IMG/VR virus record: IMGVR_UViG_3300031758_000687
Span: 1 to 21,095 of that record
From: a virus
Strand: one strand, 5' to 3'
Length of the DNA stretch: 21,095 nt
Below the pieces are notes generated by a model. It was given only the letters and a program-made list of their open reading frames with translations, was not told where the DNA came from and did not search any database. The position numbers were made by a program, and so were the translations under genes. Shown here in pieces: positions 2,662 to 21,095 of the stretch (positions are counted from its first letter, which is position 1; each line of letters begins with the position of its first letter).

Positions 2662-4008
2662 ATGTCACAAGTTATTCTTGAGAAATTGGATGCTATCGAA
2701 GCTAAACAAGCTGAAGGCATCTCGGCTATTGAAGCCAAAATCCCCGCTGCTGTTGAGGCCGTCAAAGCCGAATTCAGCGAAATGGTTGCTGCTCTGGAAG
2801 CCAAAGTCGCCTCCGTGCAAGCTCCTGCCCTCATCAAGCCTGCCAAGACTGTTCGCGGCGATGTGAACAAGTCGGTTCGTGAGCAACTGAAATCTGTCCT
2901 GAATGGCAAGTCTTCTTTCGAGAAAGAGTTGAAGATTTTTGCTGATGAAGCTCAGATGGAAGCGTACCTGAAAGAAGCCTCTGCTTTGACCGCTGGCGGT
3001 GATGGTAAGGGTGGTCGTACTGCTTACGATCCAGTGTTCCGCGCTCTGCGTTTGGCTAACCCCTTGCGCGGCGTGTCTCGCACTGTAGCTACTGATGGCT
3101 CTAGCTATCAGTTCCGTGTCAAGACTGGTAATGCTGGCGCTCAGTGGGGCTACGCCATCCAGAACAACGGCACTCCTACAACTGAAAACACTTCCATCTG
3201 GCAAATCGTGTTGAAGGACATCAACGTCCAGTTCCCAATCCGTACTGCGGCTTTGGACGACATCGATGGCTTGGAAGCCAACGTGGTTGACGATATGCTG
3301 GCTGAATTCGCTCAGAGCGAAGCCCTGTCCATGATCGTGAACAACGACCAAAGCGGTAGCGGCACTACTGTTGCCACGGGCGGCGCTGACGGCCTGCGTG
3401 GTTTGGACCAGTACGGTGGTGCTAACAGCGTGTACGCTGGCGGCACTACCTCTGAGGCTGCTTTTGGCTCGTCCGGCACTGGCTCTAGCTCTGGCCTGCA
3501 CAGCTTGGCTACCTACGACCAGATCACCACCAACGGCAACACTGTTGGCGCTGCAAACATCACTTACAAAGACGTTGTGAACTTCATCTACGCACTGCCA
3601 CAGCAGTACTGGACTGAGAGCGCCAAGTTCGTTGTAAGCCCTGTCTTGCTGGCCCAAATCCGTGGCTTGGTGGACGACAACGGCACTCCCGTGTTTGAGC
3701 GTATGTCCCCGCTGGAAACTGACGGCATCGTTGGTCGCCTGTTGGGCTTTGATGTGGTGGTCAACAAGTATCTGGATAATCCTTCCCAGACAACTACTGG
3801 CACTGCTGGCACAACCAGCTTGTACCCAATGTACTTTGCTGACTGGAGCCGCTTCCACACCATCATTGACCGCTTGAACATGGTTATGCGCCGCTATGAC
3901 CAGACTTTGCCCGGTTTCATCACCTTCTTTGGTGAGAAGCGTTTGGCAACATCGGTGCGCGATCCCTTTGCTGGTGTGCGCTATCGTTCGACAGGCACTG
4001 CGACCTGA
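2662..4008 (+). CDS. major capsid protein 1, HK97 fold, with N-terminal delta-like region
   Basis: This 448-aa protein is the likely main shell subunit. Residues 1-103 are Ala/Glu/Lys-rich and strongly helical (many AIEAK-type heptads), as expected of the delta domain that acts as an internal scaffold and is cut off by the S78 protease. The HK97 fold appears to start near KEASALT (104-110), followed by RALRLANPLR, SIWQIVLKDINVQFPIR, the AEFAQSEALSMIVNNDQSG spine-helix end, and DGLRGLDQYGG. It closes with PGFITFFGEKRLATSVRDPFAGVRY, a standard C-terminus for this family. A probable cleavage region is 100-112 (inference). The next gene is a clear paralogue without residues 1-100, and a strong terminator follows immediately after the stop. 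Confidence 0.93.
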   Translation: MSQVILEKLDAIEAKQAEGISAIEAKIPAAVEAVKAEFSEMVAALEAKVASVQAPALIKPAKTVRGDVNKSVREQLKSVLNGKSSFEKELKIFADEAQMEAYLKEASALTAGGDGKGGRTAYDPVFRALRLANPLRGVSRTVATDGSSYQFRVKTGNAGAQWGYAIQNNGTPTTENTSIWQIVLKDINVQFPIRTAALDDIDGLEANVVDDMLAEFAQSEALSMIVNNDQSGSGTTVATGGADGLRGLDQYGGANSVYAGGTTSEAAFGSSGTGSSSGLHSLATYDQITTNGNTVGAANITYKDVVNFIYALPQQYWTESAKFVVSPVLLAQIRGLVDDNGTPVFERMSPLETDGIVGRLLGFDVVVNKYLDNPSQTTTGTAGTTSLYPMYFADWSRFHTIIDRLNMVMRRYDQTLPGFITFFGEKRLATSVRDPFAGVRYRSTGTAT

Positions 4009-4015
4009 TAAAAAT

Positions 4016-4040
4016 GGGGGGGCTACGGCCCCTCCTTTTT
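4016..4040 (+). terminator. rho-independent terminator between the two capsid genes
   Basis: GGGGGGGC at 4016-4023 pairs with GCCCCTCC at 4028-4035 over eight base pairs (one G-U). The four-base loop TACG is closed by a C-G pair, which gives the exceptionally stable C(UACG)G tetraloop. Five T residues follow at 4036-4040. It starts seven bases after the capsid 1 stop codon. An A-run at 4010-4014 before the stem means the structure could also act weakly on the other strand. It would reduce transcription of the second capsid gene and everything downstream relative to capsid protein 1. Confidence 0.88.
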
Positions 4041-4064
4041 GCGCCTCAACTTTAGGAAATTGCC

Positions 4065-5078
4065 ATGACCATCACTGAAAAAATCCTCGCTGGAATTAAG
4101 CAAGCCATTACTGAAGGCGGCACAGTCAACATCGACCTGAAAGAAGCCTCTGCAATCACTGGCTCTGGCTCTGGTGTGGGTGGTCGTGCAGTATTTGATG
4201 ATGCTTTTGCCGCCTTGCGCTACGCAAACCCTTTCCGAATTGGTTCGCGGATCGTGCCTGTTGCTGGCTCTGATATGCAGTTCGTTGCCAAGACTGGTAA
4301 CGCAACCAACCAAACAAACCCTTGGGGTTATCCCGTTCAAAATAACGTGGGTACTCCTGACACCAACACATCGATTTGGCAATTGCCTGTTCGTGCTGTT
4401 ACTGCTCAATTGCCTATTCGTTCGGCTGTAATGTCGGATGTCAATAACCTTGAAGCAACCATTGTCGAAGACCTCGCGCTGGAATTTGCTCAAGTTGAAG
4501 GCGCTTCTATGGCGGTCAACTCTGACCAGTCCGGCTCGACCACCACATCCACTGGCGCAACATCCGGCCTGCGTGGTTTGGATATGTATGTGTCTGCCTC
4601 TGCAAGTGCTTATGGCACATCTGGCACGGCCATCACAAACGGCATTCACAGCATCGCTACCGTGGCTCAAACTGGCGGCGGCGTGGTGTACAACAACATC
4701 GTTGATGTCGTTAATGCCTTCCCAAGCCAATACTGGTCTTTGCCCGGTAATGCTTGGCACATTCGCCCATCCATGATTGATTCGCTGCGTAGCCTGAAGG
4801 ATTCGCAAGGCTTGCCATTGTTCTTGGAAGTTGGTGATGAAGACGGCGCTGCTGTTGGTCGTATGTTTGGTTTCCCTGTGATTCCAAACCCATACCTGTC
4901 CACAGGCTTCCCAATCTACTTGGCAAACTGGCCTCGTTTCCTGACCATTGGCGACACCGAGCAGATGTCGATTCAAATGATGGACCAAACTGCGCCCGGA
5001 TTCGTTACACTGTACGCAGAAAAGCGTGTAGTTAGCTCCGTGCGTGACCCGTTTGCTGGTGTTCGCATGAGCGCCTAA
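4065..5078 (+). CDS. major capsid protein 2, HK97 fold, lacking the delta region
   Basis: This 337-aa protein is a paralogue of the preceding capsid protein. Its KEASAITGSG (26-35) aligns with KEASALTAGG (104-113) there; counted by eye, 23 of the next 39 positions from KEASA are identical. Shared landmarks include ALRYANPFR, TSIWQLP, LEFAQVEGASMAVNSDQSG, GLRGLDMY, SQYWSLPGNAW and the closing PGFVTLYAEKRVVSSVRDPFAGVR. Only 25 residues precede the fold, so there is no scaffold-like region. TTAGGAA before the ATG is a reasonable ribosome binding site. The frame is intact and full length, and divergence is spread along the gene, so it does not look like a decaying copy. It could be a minor or pentamer-forming capsid subunit, or an alternative shell protein; the sequence does not decide. 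Confidence 0.88.
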   Translation: MTITEKILAGIKQAITEGGTVNIDLKEASAITGSGSGVGGRAVFDDAFAALRYANPFRIGSRIVPVAGSDMQFVAKTGNATNQTNPWGYPVQNNVGTPDTNTSIWQLPVRAVTAQLPIRSAVMSDVNNLEATIVEDLALEFAQVEGASMAVNSDQSGSTTTSTGATSGLRGLDMYVSASASAYGTSGTAITNGIHSIATVAQTGGGVVYNNIVDVVNAFPSQYWSLPGNAWHIRPSMIDSLRSLKDSQGLPLFLEVGDEDGAAVGRMFGFPVIPNPYLSTGFPIYLANWPRFLTIGDTEQMSIQMMDQTAPGFVTLYAEKRVVSSVRDPFAGVRMSA

Positions 5079-5090
5079 TAGGGGATAAGT

Positions 5091-5762
5091 ATGTCCGTGC
5101 AAAGTGTATTGACTGGCCTGCCTTACGGTGGTCAAACCCGCAATCCGTTTAACTACGTCAAGGTTGAGCAGATTGGCAGGGATGTGACCACCAATTGGCT
5201 GACTCCTGATGAAGTCACCAATCAATTGAACTTGTTTGACGATCAGAGCCAAGACAGCTATGTCATGGGCTTGGATTTGGCAACTCGGATGTACATTGAG
5301 GACTACCTCGGGCTGTCGATCTTCCCTGTAACGTACCGTGTTTGGTATGGCGCAGAGAGCTTGACGGCCACTCCTGTGAGTCTTGACCTGCCAGAAGTCA
5401 GTCAGAATGTGCAACCAAACCTTGCGCCTCTGACAATCGGTTCTGTCGGTTATTACAACTCTCTTTTCCCGCCTGTCTTTGTTCCTGTTGACCCATCGCA
5501 GTATTACTACGACAACAGCGGTAACAAAATCATCATCACCAGCTTGCCGACCGACATCAACACACAGATGACGGCTCCAATTGTGGTGCAGTACACGACC
5601 GTGGGCAGTCCTTTGGCGGCTTATCCCGTGATTAAGCAGGCTGGATTGCTGATTCTCACGCACCTGTACAACAACCGTTCGGACACAACTGAAACCAAGC
5701 TGAAGACCATCCCTTATGGCGCTCAGACTTTGCTGCGTCCTTACAAGCCACTGGTGATGTAA
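5091..5762 (+). CDS. head-tail connector (adaptor), HK97 gp6-like
   Basis: This 223-aa protein resembles the gp6/gp15 adaptor family, which forms the ring directly under the portal. The best marker is the C-terminal helix VIKQAGLLILTHLYNNRSDT (residues 180-199), the family's signature, preceded by the PIVVQYTTVGS strand. The N-terminal half carries the usual opening: DVTTNWLTPDEVTNQLNL, then a helix ending LDLATRMYIEDYLG. It is longer than many family members (about 100-200 aa) because of a beta-rich insertion around residues 100-160. AGGGGATAAGT precedes the ATG. It is followed without a gap by the head-closure gene, the standard neck order. Confidence 0.82.
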   Translation: MSVQSVLTGLPYGGQTRNPFNYVKVEQIGRDVTTNWLTPDEVTNQLNLFDDQSQDSYVMGLDLATRMYIEDYLGLSIFPVTYRVWYGAESLTATPVSLDLPEVSQNVQPNLAPLTIGSVGYYNSLFPPVFVPVDPSQYYYDNSGNKIIITSLPTDINTQMTAPIVVQYTTVGSPLAAYPVIKQAGLLILTHLYNNRSDTTETKLKTIPYGAQTLLRPYKPLVM

Positions 5763-6569: not shown

Positions 6570-7094
6570 ATGGCTCTCATTAACAAAGTCTTGCCCGGAT
6601 ATGTGGCGACCCTCTGGTGTCAAACTGGCGCTACGCCCACACCTCTGACTGATACTCAACTGTCCACATGGACTGGTCAAGTTGCCGACATCATTGGCAC
6701 TGCTGCTGGCGGCACTGGCACTGATGGCATTCTCGTGCCTGTGGAAGCAATTCCTGCTTTCGGTGCTGACGATGCTTTCGCTGCTTACTCTGTGGCTGGC
6801 GCTCGTACTGGTGCAAAGATCACCACACAAAACCAAGTGACCTCGCTGACTATCACTGCTGCTTGGAATCCCGCTGATACAGCACAGTTGCTGATCCGCG
6901 AAGACGGCTACAACGGCACAATCGTTCGCACCTATGTGGTTGCCGTGTATGACGGCGAAGACACTGTTGCCTACGCTTTTAACGGCATGGTTGGCGGTAT
7001 GTCTTGGGATATGTCTCCTTCTGCCGAAGGTAAGTTCAACTTCACCATCCACCCCATCGGTGGCAACAGCTACGGCTGGTCCAACAACGCTTAA
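6570..7094 (+). CDS. major tail tube protein
   Basis: This 174-aa protein is rich in Ala, Gly and Thr and predicted to be almost all beta strand, as expected for the tube subunit whose stacked hexamers form the tail. It follows the tail terminator and precedes the tail chaperones, the standard place. Recognisable elements are the N-terminal ALINKVLPGYVATLWC, the FAAYSVAGARTGAKIT stretch, and the closing GGMSWDMSPSAEGKFNFTIHP, similar to other phage tube proteins. A clear GAAGGAAA precedes the ATG after a 42-base gap, the only sizeable gap in the neck/tube cluster. This is consistent with high independent translation of an abundant protein. No Ig-like C-terminal extension is present. Confidence 0.72.
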   Translation: MALINKVLPGYVATLWCQTGATPTPLTDTQLSTWTGQVADIIGTAAGGTGTDGILVPVEAIPAFGADDAFAAYSVAGARTGAKITTQNQVTSLTITAAWNPADTAQLLIREDGYNGTIVRTYVVAVYDGEDTVAYAFNGMVGGMSWDMSPSAEGKFNFTIHPIGGNSYGWSNNA

Positions 7095-11730: not shown

Positions 11731-12365
11731 CTACAACAATGACCGCGCTGAATAGCTCGTCTATTCAGCAAGCAGAATTTATTAGGCTTACTGTTTCGTC
11801 AAACATATATACGTTTTGCAACGCAGCGTCACCAATCACTGTCAACGGCATCGCGTTCACAAACCTTGGTAGTCTGCTGCAACTGAGCGACATCAAGCGA
11901 GACATCAAAGCAACTAGCTCTGACTTGTCTGTGTCCTTGACTGGAGTTGACGGAACTAACGTGGCTGTTGTTTTGGGGTCTAACATTAAAGGTTCACGCA
12001 TTGAGGTGTGGCGTGGATTCTTGGACTCCAACAACCAAATCATTACAACGCCTACGCAGCAGTTTTTCAAGCGTTATCAAGGCATTGTTTCCAATTACTC
12101 AATCACAGAAGACTTCAACGAGCAGCTACGCATTCGCGTGGCAACTGTTGGTCTGTCCTGTGCCTCGTTCCGGACAATCCTTGAGAACCGTGTTGGCGGT
12201 GTACGCACGACACCAAAGATTTGGCAGGTGTACTATCCAAACGACACAAGCATGAACCGAGTTCCGACTATTGCTGGCTCATACTTTGACTTTGGCGGTC
12301 AACCCAATACCTCTGGCAGTCAGGCTTCATCTAACGCACCATCACAAAGAATCTTTGGACGATGA
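11727..12365 (+). CDS. minor tail protein, gpL-like position
   Basis: This 212-aa protein overlaps the previous gene by ATGA. The N-terminal half is beta-rich (ITVNGIAFTNLGSLLQLSDIKRDI, then SDLSVSLTGVDG, and IEVWRGFLD). The second half has NRVGGVRTTPKIW (154-166) followed by YYPNDTSMNRVPTIAGSYFDFGG. That pattern, Gly-Arg-Arg-Thr-like then a Trp/Tyr and D-x-x-M-x-x-V-P before an F-G, recurs in tail-tip adaptor proteins encoded between the tape measure and gpJ in many siphophages. In lambda this slot holds gpL. No Cys cluster as in lambda gpL is present. It probably connects the tube end to the tip protein. Confidence 0.65.
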   Translation: MTTTMTALNSSSIQQAEFIRLTVSSNIYTFCNAASPITVNGIAFTNLGSLLQLSDIKRDIKATSSDLSVSLTGVDGTNVAVVLGSNIKGSRIEVWRGFLDSNNQIITTPTQQFFKRYQGIVSNYSITEDFNEQLRIRVATVGLSCASFRTILENRVGGVRTTPKIWQVYYPNDTSMNRVPTIAGSYFDFGGQPNTSGSQASSNAPSQRIFGR

Positions 12366-12808
12366 TAAGACTAGCGACAAGATACGACATACCACGACTG
12401 CTTGAGATTGTTGAGGCGTATGCCTTTGAGAATCCCATTACGGTTTTGGGTAAACAGGTCAATCATGACCCTAAATATGTTGAGAGCTTGTTGTTTGGCA
12501 TCATCATGGGGCGCGGGTTTGTCTATATAGATAAGCACATGAGAGGCGCAATTATTGGCATCAAGAATCAGAACATCTGGTGTCCAAAGGTGAGAGAATT
12601 GAATGAGTTGCTTTGGTGGGTAGAGCCTGAGTACAGAAACGGCACAATTGGTGGTCGGCTCTGGAAAGCGTTTGACCAGCAAGCCGATCAGATGTTGAGC
12701 AGTGGCGATGTTCATTGCGTCATTACATCTGTATCGGCATCAGGCCCATTGATTGATTACACCAAGCGCGGCTACAAGGCGGTTGGCGCTAGTTTTGTGA
12801 AGGAATAG
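12362..12808 (+). CDS. GNAT-family N-acetyltransferase-like protein in the tail operon
   Basis: This 148-aa protein has the full GNAT layout: an N-terminal RLATRYDIPRLLEIVEAY strand-helix, central strands around GRGFVYIDKHMRGAIIGIK, the LLWWVEPEYRNGTIGGRLWKAF acetyl-CoA loop (R92-N-G-T-I-G-G98), and a C-terminal IDYTKRGYKAVGASF strand, the usual end of GNAT domains. It overlaps the gpL-like gene by ATGA and is followed after two bases by the tip gene, so it is firmly part of the tail operon. In lambda this position holds gpK and gpI, and no NlpC/P60 peptidase is seen here. Substrate is unknown; possible roles are modification of a tail protein or of a host target. Confidence 0.8.
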   Translation: MIRLATRYDIPRLLEIVEAYAFENPITVLGKQVNHDPKYVESLLFGIIMGRGFVYIDKHMRGAIIGIKNQNIWCPKVRELNELLWWVEPEYRNGTIGGRLWKAFDQQADQMLSSGDVHCVITSVSASGPLIDYTKRGYKAVGASFVKE

Positions 12809-18116: not shown

Positions 18117-21095
18117 ATGGCTACTTTGAATGTGACCGTAGTTGACGGCAACAATATCAACGTCCAAGTCGTACCCACACCAAATCAAGTCATTAACATT
18201 GATCGTGGCGTTGCTGGTAATGGCATTGAAAGCATTACGGTAGTTGATATTGATGACTTTGCTTATCTGGACATCGTTTATACAAACGGCACAGAAGAGC
18301 AACTCGGCCCGATTGGCGTCAGCAGCCAAATCCTGATCGACATTGAAGACAACATGGTAAGCATCGTTGCTGTTGCAAACGATCTTGCTGTTATCAATGA
18401 TGTGTACGACAACCTTGCAGCCATCAACGATGTAGAAGCAAATATGGCGGCAATTATTGCTGCCCCTGCTGAAGCTGCTGCCGCCGCTGCTAGCGCTGCT
18501 AACGCTGCTCAATCTGCTTCTGACTCGCTGGAGTCTGCAAACGATTCAGCTGCTTCCGCATCTGAGGCATTACTGAGTGAGCAAAACGCCGCTGATAGTG
18601 CTGCTGCTGCTTTGCAAAGTTCTATTGACGCACAGACTGATGCCAACAATGCGGCAACTTCTGCGGGACAATCAGCAACCTCTGCCGCTGCTGCCCTTGC
18701 ATCTGAACAAGCTGCCGCTGATTCTGAGGCTGCTGCGCTGGCATCTGAAAATGATGCGGCTGCTTCTGCTGCTGCCGCCCTTGCCTCTGAACAAGCTGCC
18801 GCCGCTTCTGCTGCTGCTGCCGATACAAGTGAAGGCAACGCTGCAACTTCTGCATCTAATGCTGCCACTTCCGCTTCTGCTGCTGCCACATCAGCAGCAA
18901 ATGCTGCCACCTCAGAAACCAACGCCGCCTCATCTGCAACAGCCGCTGATGGCAGTGCTGATTTGTCTGCTGCTGAAGCTGTCAATGCCGCAAATTCTGC
19001 TGGAGAGGCTGCGACATCTGCTGCCGCTGCCTTGGCCTCCGAGCAAGCTGCTGCTGACTCTGAAGCTGCTGCACTGGCATCTGAGAATAATGCTTCTGCT
19101 TCTGCTGCTGCCGCCCTTGCGTCCGAAAATGCTGCTGCCGATAGCGAGGCTGCTGCTCTTGCATCGCAGATTGCTGCCGCCTTGTCTGAGGCAAATGCTG
19201 CTGCTTTGTATGACAATTTTGACGACCGTTACCTTGGCGCAAAGAATGCTGACCCTGCCACAGACAACGATGGCAACCCACTGTTGACTGGCGCTCTGTA
19301 CTGGAACACAGTCAACAATGTGATGAGGACATACAACGGCACTGCATGGCAGACTGCTTTTGTCCCCTCAACCAACTTTGTCGCCAAGTCGCCAACGGCA
19401 ACCGACAATGCTGTGCCTCGTTTTGATGGCACGACTGGCTACACCATCCAAAACTCTGGCGTCATCATTGACGACAACAACAACATCGCAGGCAACAGCT
19501 TCACTGGTCATTACGTTCAGATTGACACGACTGTTACTGAGGCTCCCGGTGTCGGTAAGATGGTTTGGGATGCTGCCCAAGGAACTATCGCATTCAACGC
19601 TTTAGCTGACGGCGTTGTTCGCATTGGTCAATCAATTTTGGCTCGTGTCACCAACGCAGATTCTGTGACCATTCAAAAAGGTCAAGCAGTTTATTTGTTT
19701 GGGGCGCAAGGCGACAGGGCTACTGTTAAGTTGGCAAGTAACACATCTGACGCAACATCAGCCAAGGTGTTTGGCCTTGCCAATCAAGCCATCACCGCCA
19801 ACGGCACTGGCTTCATCATGTGCCAAGGCGTTATTGAAGGCTTGAACCTCTCTAGCTTTTCGGCAGGCGATTCTTTGTATTTGGGTTCGACCCCCGGATC
19901 GCTTACAAACGTCAAACAATACGCTCCCAACCATCTGGTTTACATGGGTGTTGTCGAACGTGCAAATGCTGGCAATGGTCAGATTTATGTTCGTGTTCAA
20001 AATGGATATGAGCTTGACGAGCTTCACAACGTATCAGCACAAAGCCCAACAAACGGTCAGACGCTTGTTTTTAACAGTTCAACCAACTTGTGGGAAAAAT
20101 CTAACGCTCCAGTGTTGAGCAGCGCAACTGGCTTGCCTTTGTCCACTGGTGTGACTGGCATCTTGCCTGTTGCTAACGGTGGTACAGGCGCATCTACAGC
20201 ATCTTCTGCTCGTACCAATCTTGGCCTTGGCACTGCGGCTGTGCTTGATGCTGGAGTAGCAAATGGCGTTGCCACGTTGGACAACAGCGGTACTGTTCCG
20301 CTTTCTCAAATCCCTGCGTCACTGCAAGGCGCTTTGACTTTTGAAGGCACATGGAACGCAGCAACCAACACGCCAACAATCACATCTGGTGTTGGCGTAA
20401 AGGGACACTACTATGTTGTCAGCGTATCCGGCAACACAACCATTGATGGTGTGTCTGGTTGGGTGACTGGCGACTGGATTGTGTTCAGTGGCACTGTTTG
20501 GCAAAAGGTGGACAACACTGATGCCGTGACATCTGTTAACGGCTACATAGGCAGCGTTGTGCTTGGCTTTGCAGATGTTGGCGCTCCTTCTGTATCTGGA
20601 GCCAATGCAACTGGCACATGGGCAATTGGCATCTCTGGTAATGCGGCCACAGCCACTACAGCAGCAACATCCAATAACCTGAACATCAACGGCCTGACCT
20701 CTGAGCCAGCAACGCAGTCATCTGACCTGATTGCTTTCTACGATGTATCTGCTGGCGCTACACGCAAAGCAACTGTTCAACAGCTTGCATTGGTTGGCCC
20801 CACTGGACCGACAGGCGCTACAGGTCCGACAGGTCCGACTGGCCCGACTGGTCCGACAGGAGCGACAGGCACTGCCGCAACTGTTGCTGTTGGCCCAACT
20901 ACAACTGGTGCAGCAGGCACAAGCGCGACCGTAACGAACTCCGGCACATCGTCTGCTGCTGTCTTTAATTTTACGATTCCGCAAGGCGCTACTGGCCCCA
21001 CAGGTCCGACTGGTCCAACTGGCCCACAAGGTATTCAAGGCAACACAGGTCCAACTGGACCAACTGGACCGACTGGAGCAACAGGTACTGCCGCA
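18117..21095 (+). CDS. large tail fibre protein (partial, 3' end outside window)
   Basis: The frame stays open from the ATG at 18117 (AAGGGGA before it) to the last base, 993 codons. Domains in order: a beta-rich N-terminus that probably docks to the tail (1-115); an Ala-rich helical array of seventeen 14-residue repeats (121-358) of the lambda Stf phage-fibre type; a [10 protein letters not shown]...[18 protein letters not shown] adaptor (368-410) common in phage fibres; a beta region with GDSLYLG (583-589); a [20 protein letters not shown] motif (684-703); a [21 protein letters not shown] module (806-826); and two collagen-like G-X-T tracts (894-917 and from 957) separated by a beta module ending VFNFTIPQG. 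The receptor-binding tip and any chaperone lie downstream. Confidence 0.9.
18477..19190 (+). repeat. seventeen tandem 14-residue (42-bp) Ala-rich repeats within the fibre gene
   Basis: Divided from 18477 in steps of 42 bases, the fibre reads as 17 blocks on the pattern [14 protein letters not shown]. Blocks 6 and 14 (from 18687 and 19023) are identical in protein but differ in 8 of 14 codons, all synonymous. Blocks 7-8 and 15-16 continue the similarity. The 14-residue step equals two heptads, as in trimeric fibre coiled coils. Confidence 0.88.
20796..20867 (+). repeat. collagen-like G-X-T tract, first (8 triplets)
   Basis: Eight uninterrupted Gly-X-Thr triplets (X is Pro or Ala) lie in frame in the fibre gene, built from 9-base units such as ggt ccg aca. 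They would form a short triple helix or flexible spacer. Confidence 0.85.
20985..21083 (+). repeat. collagen-like G-X-T/Q tract, second (11 triplets)
   Basis: Eleven Gly-X-Y triplets in frame (mostly GPT, with GPQ, GIQ and GNT in the middle) follow a beta module that ends NFTIPQG. The tract may continue past the window edge. The same protein pattern uses varied codons. Confidence 0.83.

Follow-up and report, generated by a model that had tools for sequence, protein, structure and literature searches.

Why would a phage of HK97 type carry two capsid genes? Phages of this type are the textbook case in which one scaffold-fused protein makes hexamers and pentamers, and most of them build their pentamers from that single capsid protein. 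The virus record IMGVR_UViG_3300031758_000687, of which we analysed a stretch of 21,095 bases (the window), instead encodes two in tandem, here called MCP1 and MCP2. One bears a scaffold-like (delta) region and the other is nearly scaffold-free, a split that amounts to a natural experiment on how pentamers are told from hexamers. It also bears on how much delta one shell needs, and on the origin of vertex proteins like T4 gp24.

The window opens with the 3′ end of a terminase gene (25-291), followed on the + strand by genes for a portal protein (316-1719; PF04860, E 1.8e-60; phrog_12) and a Peptidase_S78 prohead protease (1859-2659; PF04586, E 1.4e-9; phrog_80, head maturation protease). The two capsid genes come next, also on the + strand: MCP1, an HK97-fold major capsid protein with an N-terminal delta (2662-4008; 448 aa; PF05065, E 4e-27), and MCP2, an HK97-fold paralogue without a long delta (4065-5078; 337 aa; PF05065, E 6e-21). 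A head-tail adaptor gene directly follows MCP2 on the same strand (5091-5762; phrog_40 and phrog_442), and beyond it lie further head-tail/tail genes, the tape measure and tail proteins. HK97 has the same portal-protease-capsid order, and its capsid protein gp5 carries a fused delta of about 100 residues. MCP1 and the protease resemble HK97 gp5 and gp4, with a fused delta of similar length and an S78 protease just upstream, and have the sequence features of the delta plus S78-protease capsid type; MCP2 has only a leader of ~26 aa, and there are two capsid proteins here where HK97 uses one for both hexamers and pentamers. Elsewhere in the window, an acetyltransferase-family gene (phrog_1249) sits between tail genes at 12362-12808, a probable tail fibre frame has a long Ala-rich stretch (18460-19200), and collagen-like Gly-Pro-Thr repeats run off the contig end (20800-21095).

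The original prediction described two intact, tandem HK97-fold capsid genes, and our analysis agrees: neither ORF is interrupted or truncated, both score above the PF05065 Phage_capsid cut-off in a profile search with nearly the whole model covered, and both match PHROG 10 (major head protein). The two proteins are 45% identical over 343 aligned columns (E 5e-86). The offset of 78 residues given for their starts is exact, with MCP1 K104 aligned to MCP2 K26, and a recount of the 39 positions from KEASA again gave 23 identities. The prediction had also assigned a scaffold to MCP1 only, which holds for the delta of ~104 residues (2662-2973, + strand; ending YLK|EASALT), delimited by alignment and by a low-confidence model in which it is mostly helical (helices 2-50, 64-80 and 96-110). 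It does not hold that MCP2 lacks any counterpart, as MCP2 has a short conserved leader of ~26 aa (4065-4142, + strand) that ends IDLK|EASAIT, the same predicted protease junction. After its delta, MCP1 reads YLK-EASALTAGGDGKGG; an alignment of relatives gives the MCP2 leader consensus MTITEKILxGIKQAITEGxxVxIDLK, then EASAxTGSGSGVGG. One short alignment suggests that this leader may descend from both ends of the delta region. In two loci from a single contig (L067 and L120), MCP1 is split near residue 149 by a stop codon in frame, either real or a sequencing error, with MCP2 intact; in another single contig, MCP2 can be read only by joining two frames that overlap, apparently a frameshift (L095:5394-6380).

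We sought other genomes with the same pair and found it in the complete genome of an isolate, at ~190 loci and on contigs of five MAGs. The isolate, Methylophilaceae phage P19250A (KX815270), was the sole relative among annotated phages at E 1e-5; its two genes are adjacent, in the protease-MCP1-MCP2 order seen here, and their products are 60% and 58% identical to MCP1 and MCP2. Among viral contigs, relatives of MCP2 are encoded in 182 stretches and relatives of MCP1 in at least 600, and both genes are present in 187 fetched loci (some being one contig fetched twice); MCP2 also occurs on five contigs binned in proteobacterial MAGs. Every fetched MCP1-type locus has MCP2 unless the contig ends, and fetched loci with a single gene are cut by a contig end, bar that of the distant Rhizobium phage RHph_X2_25. 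Because the genes are paired in all loci that reach far enough, the pair is fixed in this phage group. When we looked for a close relative with a single capsid gene, only RHph_X2_25 came up, at 25% identity. OM43 phage Venkman (MT375522; L084) has been described as syntenic with P19250A (PMC8163748); it was rejected as a pair carrier, since its head module is of a different kind, in which only one gene is annotated as capsid and the scaffold has its own gene.

The lineage with paired capsid genes is one of freshwater phages, and the pair is so far unremarked in the open-access literature, where we found no description of it. Isolate and MAG labels hint weakly at betaproteobacterial hosts, since phage contigs are not binned reliably and one of the MAGs carries an alphaproteobacterial label. 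In a Phage_capsid survey of 397 genomes of bacteria from the same phylum, the matches listed included no further tandem pair of full length; this result is not a count, as the survey overlooked the second gene of a known pair carrier (G001). In one surveyed genome, a full Phage_capsid match has behind it, within 3 kb, two short fragments of the capsid C-terminus (frames of 89 and 102 aa; G356:C90:252646-255598), possibly partial duplications in another prophage.

How old is the pair, and is the second gene functional? In a quick tree of 79 representatives (SH-aLRT support), a branch of length 2.2 with support 100 separates all 46 MCP2 sequences from all 32 MCP1 sequences. MCP2 is therefore one clade, pointing to a single duplication that predates the whole sampled group, with no exchange between the copies. 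RHph_X2_25, on a branch of about 10, is too distant to root the duplication. Median pairwise dN/dS (Nei-Gojobori, three dS bins) is 0.07-0.13 for MCP2, 0.12-0.15 for MCP1 and 0.09-0.16 for the protease. The claim that the second capsid gene is functional and under selection is thus borne out, with dN/dS about 0.1 excluding relaxed selection (near 1). These values also bear on the suggestion that MCP2 is a duplicate of recent date or in decay, or that the pair is an artefact of assembly, for which we found no evidence. Given dN/dS of ~0.1 and its presence in relatives (a complete isolate genome, ~190 loci and the contigs of five MAGs), MCP2 is neither a pseudogene nor a misassembly, and we rejected both explanations as having practically no chance of being right. 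The pair is real, conserved and under selection.

If both proteins are functional, do they belong to the same particle? HK97 gp4 cuts gp5 after about 103 residues. In the window, the end of the MCP1 delta and the end of the MCP2 leader have a common junction, LK|EAS(A)(L/I)TGSG, and across the relatives a junction of the form E(A/Q/S/T)x lies at a constant spacing ahead of the GG (GGR) landmark in all of the 176 MCP2 and in 173 of the 176 MCP1 sequences examined. EASTLTGSG is found in both genes of L171-L174 and L176, the P19250A pair has EQAGLQGSG with EAAGLQGSG, and four loci (L140, L145, L148 and L153) have EAAGLT with EAASLG. Within a genome, the two junctions match at 5.38 of 8 residues, compared with 5.04 (sd 0.05) when partners are shuffled, and none of 2000 shuffles was as high; the test used distinct pairs, and its statistic ignores kinship among genomes. 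Because unusual junction forms tend to be common to both genes of a genome, one protease, the S78 enzyme, probably cuts both MCP1 and MCP2 at this junction. In three loci near P19250A (L167, L169 and L170), the MCP1 junction contains a lineage-specific insertion, KEASAIGNPAGIGGGAGVGG, and MCP2 retains the short form.

A common junction is awkward for the proposal that MCP2 builds a separate shell, smaller or alternative, or a compartment outside the virion. Delta-less HK97-fold proteins such as encapsulins do self-assemble, but MCP2 has its protease junction in common with MCP1, its gene is inside the head operon, and no second portal was found among the genes searched in the window. We consider such a shell quite improbable. 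That MCP2 has some role in the shell of the virion itself is, by comparison, a reading in which we have high confidence.

The arrangement of the two genes suggests how much of each protein is made. An intrinsic terminator (4016-4040, + strand) lies in the 56-base gap between MCP1 and MCP2, with an 8-bp GC stem, a 4-nt loop and T5 (GGGGGGGC-TACG-GCCCCTCC-TTTTT); the sequence downstream has a Shine-Dalgarno-like AGGA ahead of MCP2 (4054-4057, + strand), retained in many relatives. No other strong terminator was found on the + strand of the 21-kb window. Under a strict rule (a stem of 7 or more unbroken pairs, 5 being G-C, followed by 4 or more T within 8 bases), terminators are present in 175 of 182 MCP1-MCP2 intergenic stretches (108 of 115 different ones) and comprise 69 different stem-loops, and the remaining 7 stretches have, by eye, an imperfect version. 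Elsewhere in the loci, the same rule gives 45 terminators in 706 kb, with overlapping loci counted repeatedly. Terminators after capsid genes also occur in single-capsid phages (e.g., T7 gene 10); the notable feature here is a second capsid gene on the low side of the terminator. In L023, L024 and L025, ~520 extra bases separate MCP1 from MCP2 (L023:1506-2082, L024:5423-6000 and L025:5424-6000) and contain an ORF that by eye is like a GIY-YIG homing endonuclease (YTYIHF...PFYVGKG); the gap is likewise longer in L110.

Codon usage is graded in the same direction. The effective number of codons is 38.2 for MCP1, about 43.7 for MCP2 and 48.8 for the protease, and codon bias is stronger in MCP1 than in MCP2 in 68 of 69 genomes, with the protease weakest of the three. 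Together with the terminator, these values suggest that MCP1 output is the largest and that MCP2 output is smaller yet substantial. Taken together, the terminator and the graded codon bias make MCP2 probably a lower-copy shell protein of the virion. The terminator can be read as "less than MCP1" but not as "55 copies", because the adaptor and tail genes beyond it are lowered as well.

Copy number also matters for the suggestion that MCP2 acts only at or near the portal vertex (e.g., in the capsomers around the portal) or in prohead initiation. Its gene does adjoin that of the head-tail adaptor (5091-5762), on the connector side of the terminator. However, MCP2 has stronger codon bias than the portal (effective codon number 46.5) or the adaptor (52.5) and comes close to the gene at 6570-7094, possibly the tail tube (41.1), which suggests tens of copies or more. 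We therefore regard a purely portal-side role as unlikely, and favour a minor component of the shell at large.

Where in the shell might such a component sit? P19250A has a genome of 38.7 kb, and several related contigs are 37-41 kb. HK97, at such a genome size, builds its shell from 60 x 7 subunits minus those of the portal vertex; a shell like this would call for about 360 subunits in hexamers and 55 in pentamers. In phage T4, one protease cuts both gp23 and gp24, and the N-terminal piece removed is long in gp23 and short in gp24. T4 gp24 forms the pentamers at 11 of 12 vertices (PMC3012670). The pair described here is like gp23/gp24 in being two HK97-fold paralogues in one genome, but T4, a myovirus, encodes its scaffold proteins separately, whereas in the phage studied here the delta of MCP1 takes that part and the protease is of S78 type. 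When MCP1 and MCP2 profiles were compared with solved structures, no T4 chain was matched at E up to 0.1; because no sequence kinship was found, we say that the pair may "work like" T4 gp23/gp24, not that it "is a" gp23/gp24.

We propose that one old HK97-type capsid gene was duplicated and that the two copies then specialised. MCP1, with its delta scaffold, would drive prohead assembly, be abundant and form the hexamer lattice. MCP2 would have lost most of the delta and would be made in smaller amounts, since only part of transcription would pass the terminator. It would join the same prohead as a minor part and, in the simplest case, form the pentamers at the 11 vertices that lack the portal. 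At maturation, the S78 protease would trim both proteins at their common junction, taking off the delta of MCP1 and the short leader of MCP2, and DNA would be packaged. Paralogy, one duplication, universal pairing, purifying selection, a conserved junction, the terminator and graded codon bias are established at the sequence level, and cleavage and the presence of MCP2 in virions, at lower copy number, are what we infer. Its position at the vertices, the most likely one by analogy with T4, is the least certain element, and we judge the chances of a division of labour between MCP1 hexamers and MCP2 vertex pentamers, like those of gp24, to be about even. Among the roles first suggested for the second protein, a minor shell component agrees with the terminator and graded codon bias, with pentamers as the simplest case; both features speak against MCP2 being an equal partner of MCP1.

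Differences between the two proteins bear on the vertex position. AlphaFold models of MCP1 and MCP2, built from 23 and 31 sequences, have low confidence (mean pLDDT 44 and 55), too low for a comparison of capsomer contacts. In Foldseek searches, both of these low-confidence models matched HK97-fold capsids and encapsulins, with the RcGTA capsid closest to each (for MCP2, E 2.5e-9, compared with about 1e-6 for HK97). An alignment identifies stretches present in MCP1 but not in MCP2, at 254-262, 288-295, 372-384 (~13 residues) and the C-terminus, and the loop deletions relative to the MCP1 set are common to the MCP2 set. From general knowledge of the fold, we take MCP1 372-384 to lie probably in the axial domain, close to the axis of the capsomer. 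The absence of an axial loop from MCP2 would fit a pentamer, where there is less room than in a hexamer, but this is suggestive only. The RcGTA capsid protein (Rcc01687) is also the nearest solved sequence to MCP1 (E 5e-8), yet RcGTA differs from the pair in that its single capsid protein makes both pentamers and hexamers (PMC7296036). A dedicated vertex protein is thus not required, because most HK97-type phages, and RcGTA, manage with one.

In the strongest competing reading, MCP2 would be a minor subunit mixed into hexamers and pentamers with no fixed place, tuning curvature, size or stability. The bodies of MCP1 and MCP2 are strongly similar, the N-arm junction is retained, and lower MCP2 expression would fit this arrangement too. 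To our knowledge, Family 2B two-component encapsulins are cellular compartments without protease, portal or delta, whereas the pair here belongs to a phage with all three. They nevertheless resemble it in being two co-assembling HK97-fold paralogues, of variable composition, and a mixed shell stays a candidate because they demonstrate that such paralogues can mix (PMC12407261). However, strict pairing and a long branch without exchange suggest distinct, non-interchangeable roles, as do the loop deletions common to the MCP2 set, so we hold a mixed shell to be possible but doubtful. Covering a vertex or a mixed placement alike, it seems to us somewhat probable that these widespread small siphophages have an HK97-type shell of two obligate paralogues, one scaffold-bearing and one nearly scaffold-free, with a joint protease site and a ratio set by the terminator. 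In P19250A, the only isolate found, MCP1 bears the annotation "gene transfer agent capsid protein" and MCP2 "hypothetical protein", the latter of which a shell role would correct.
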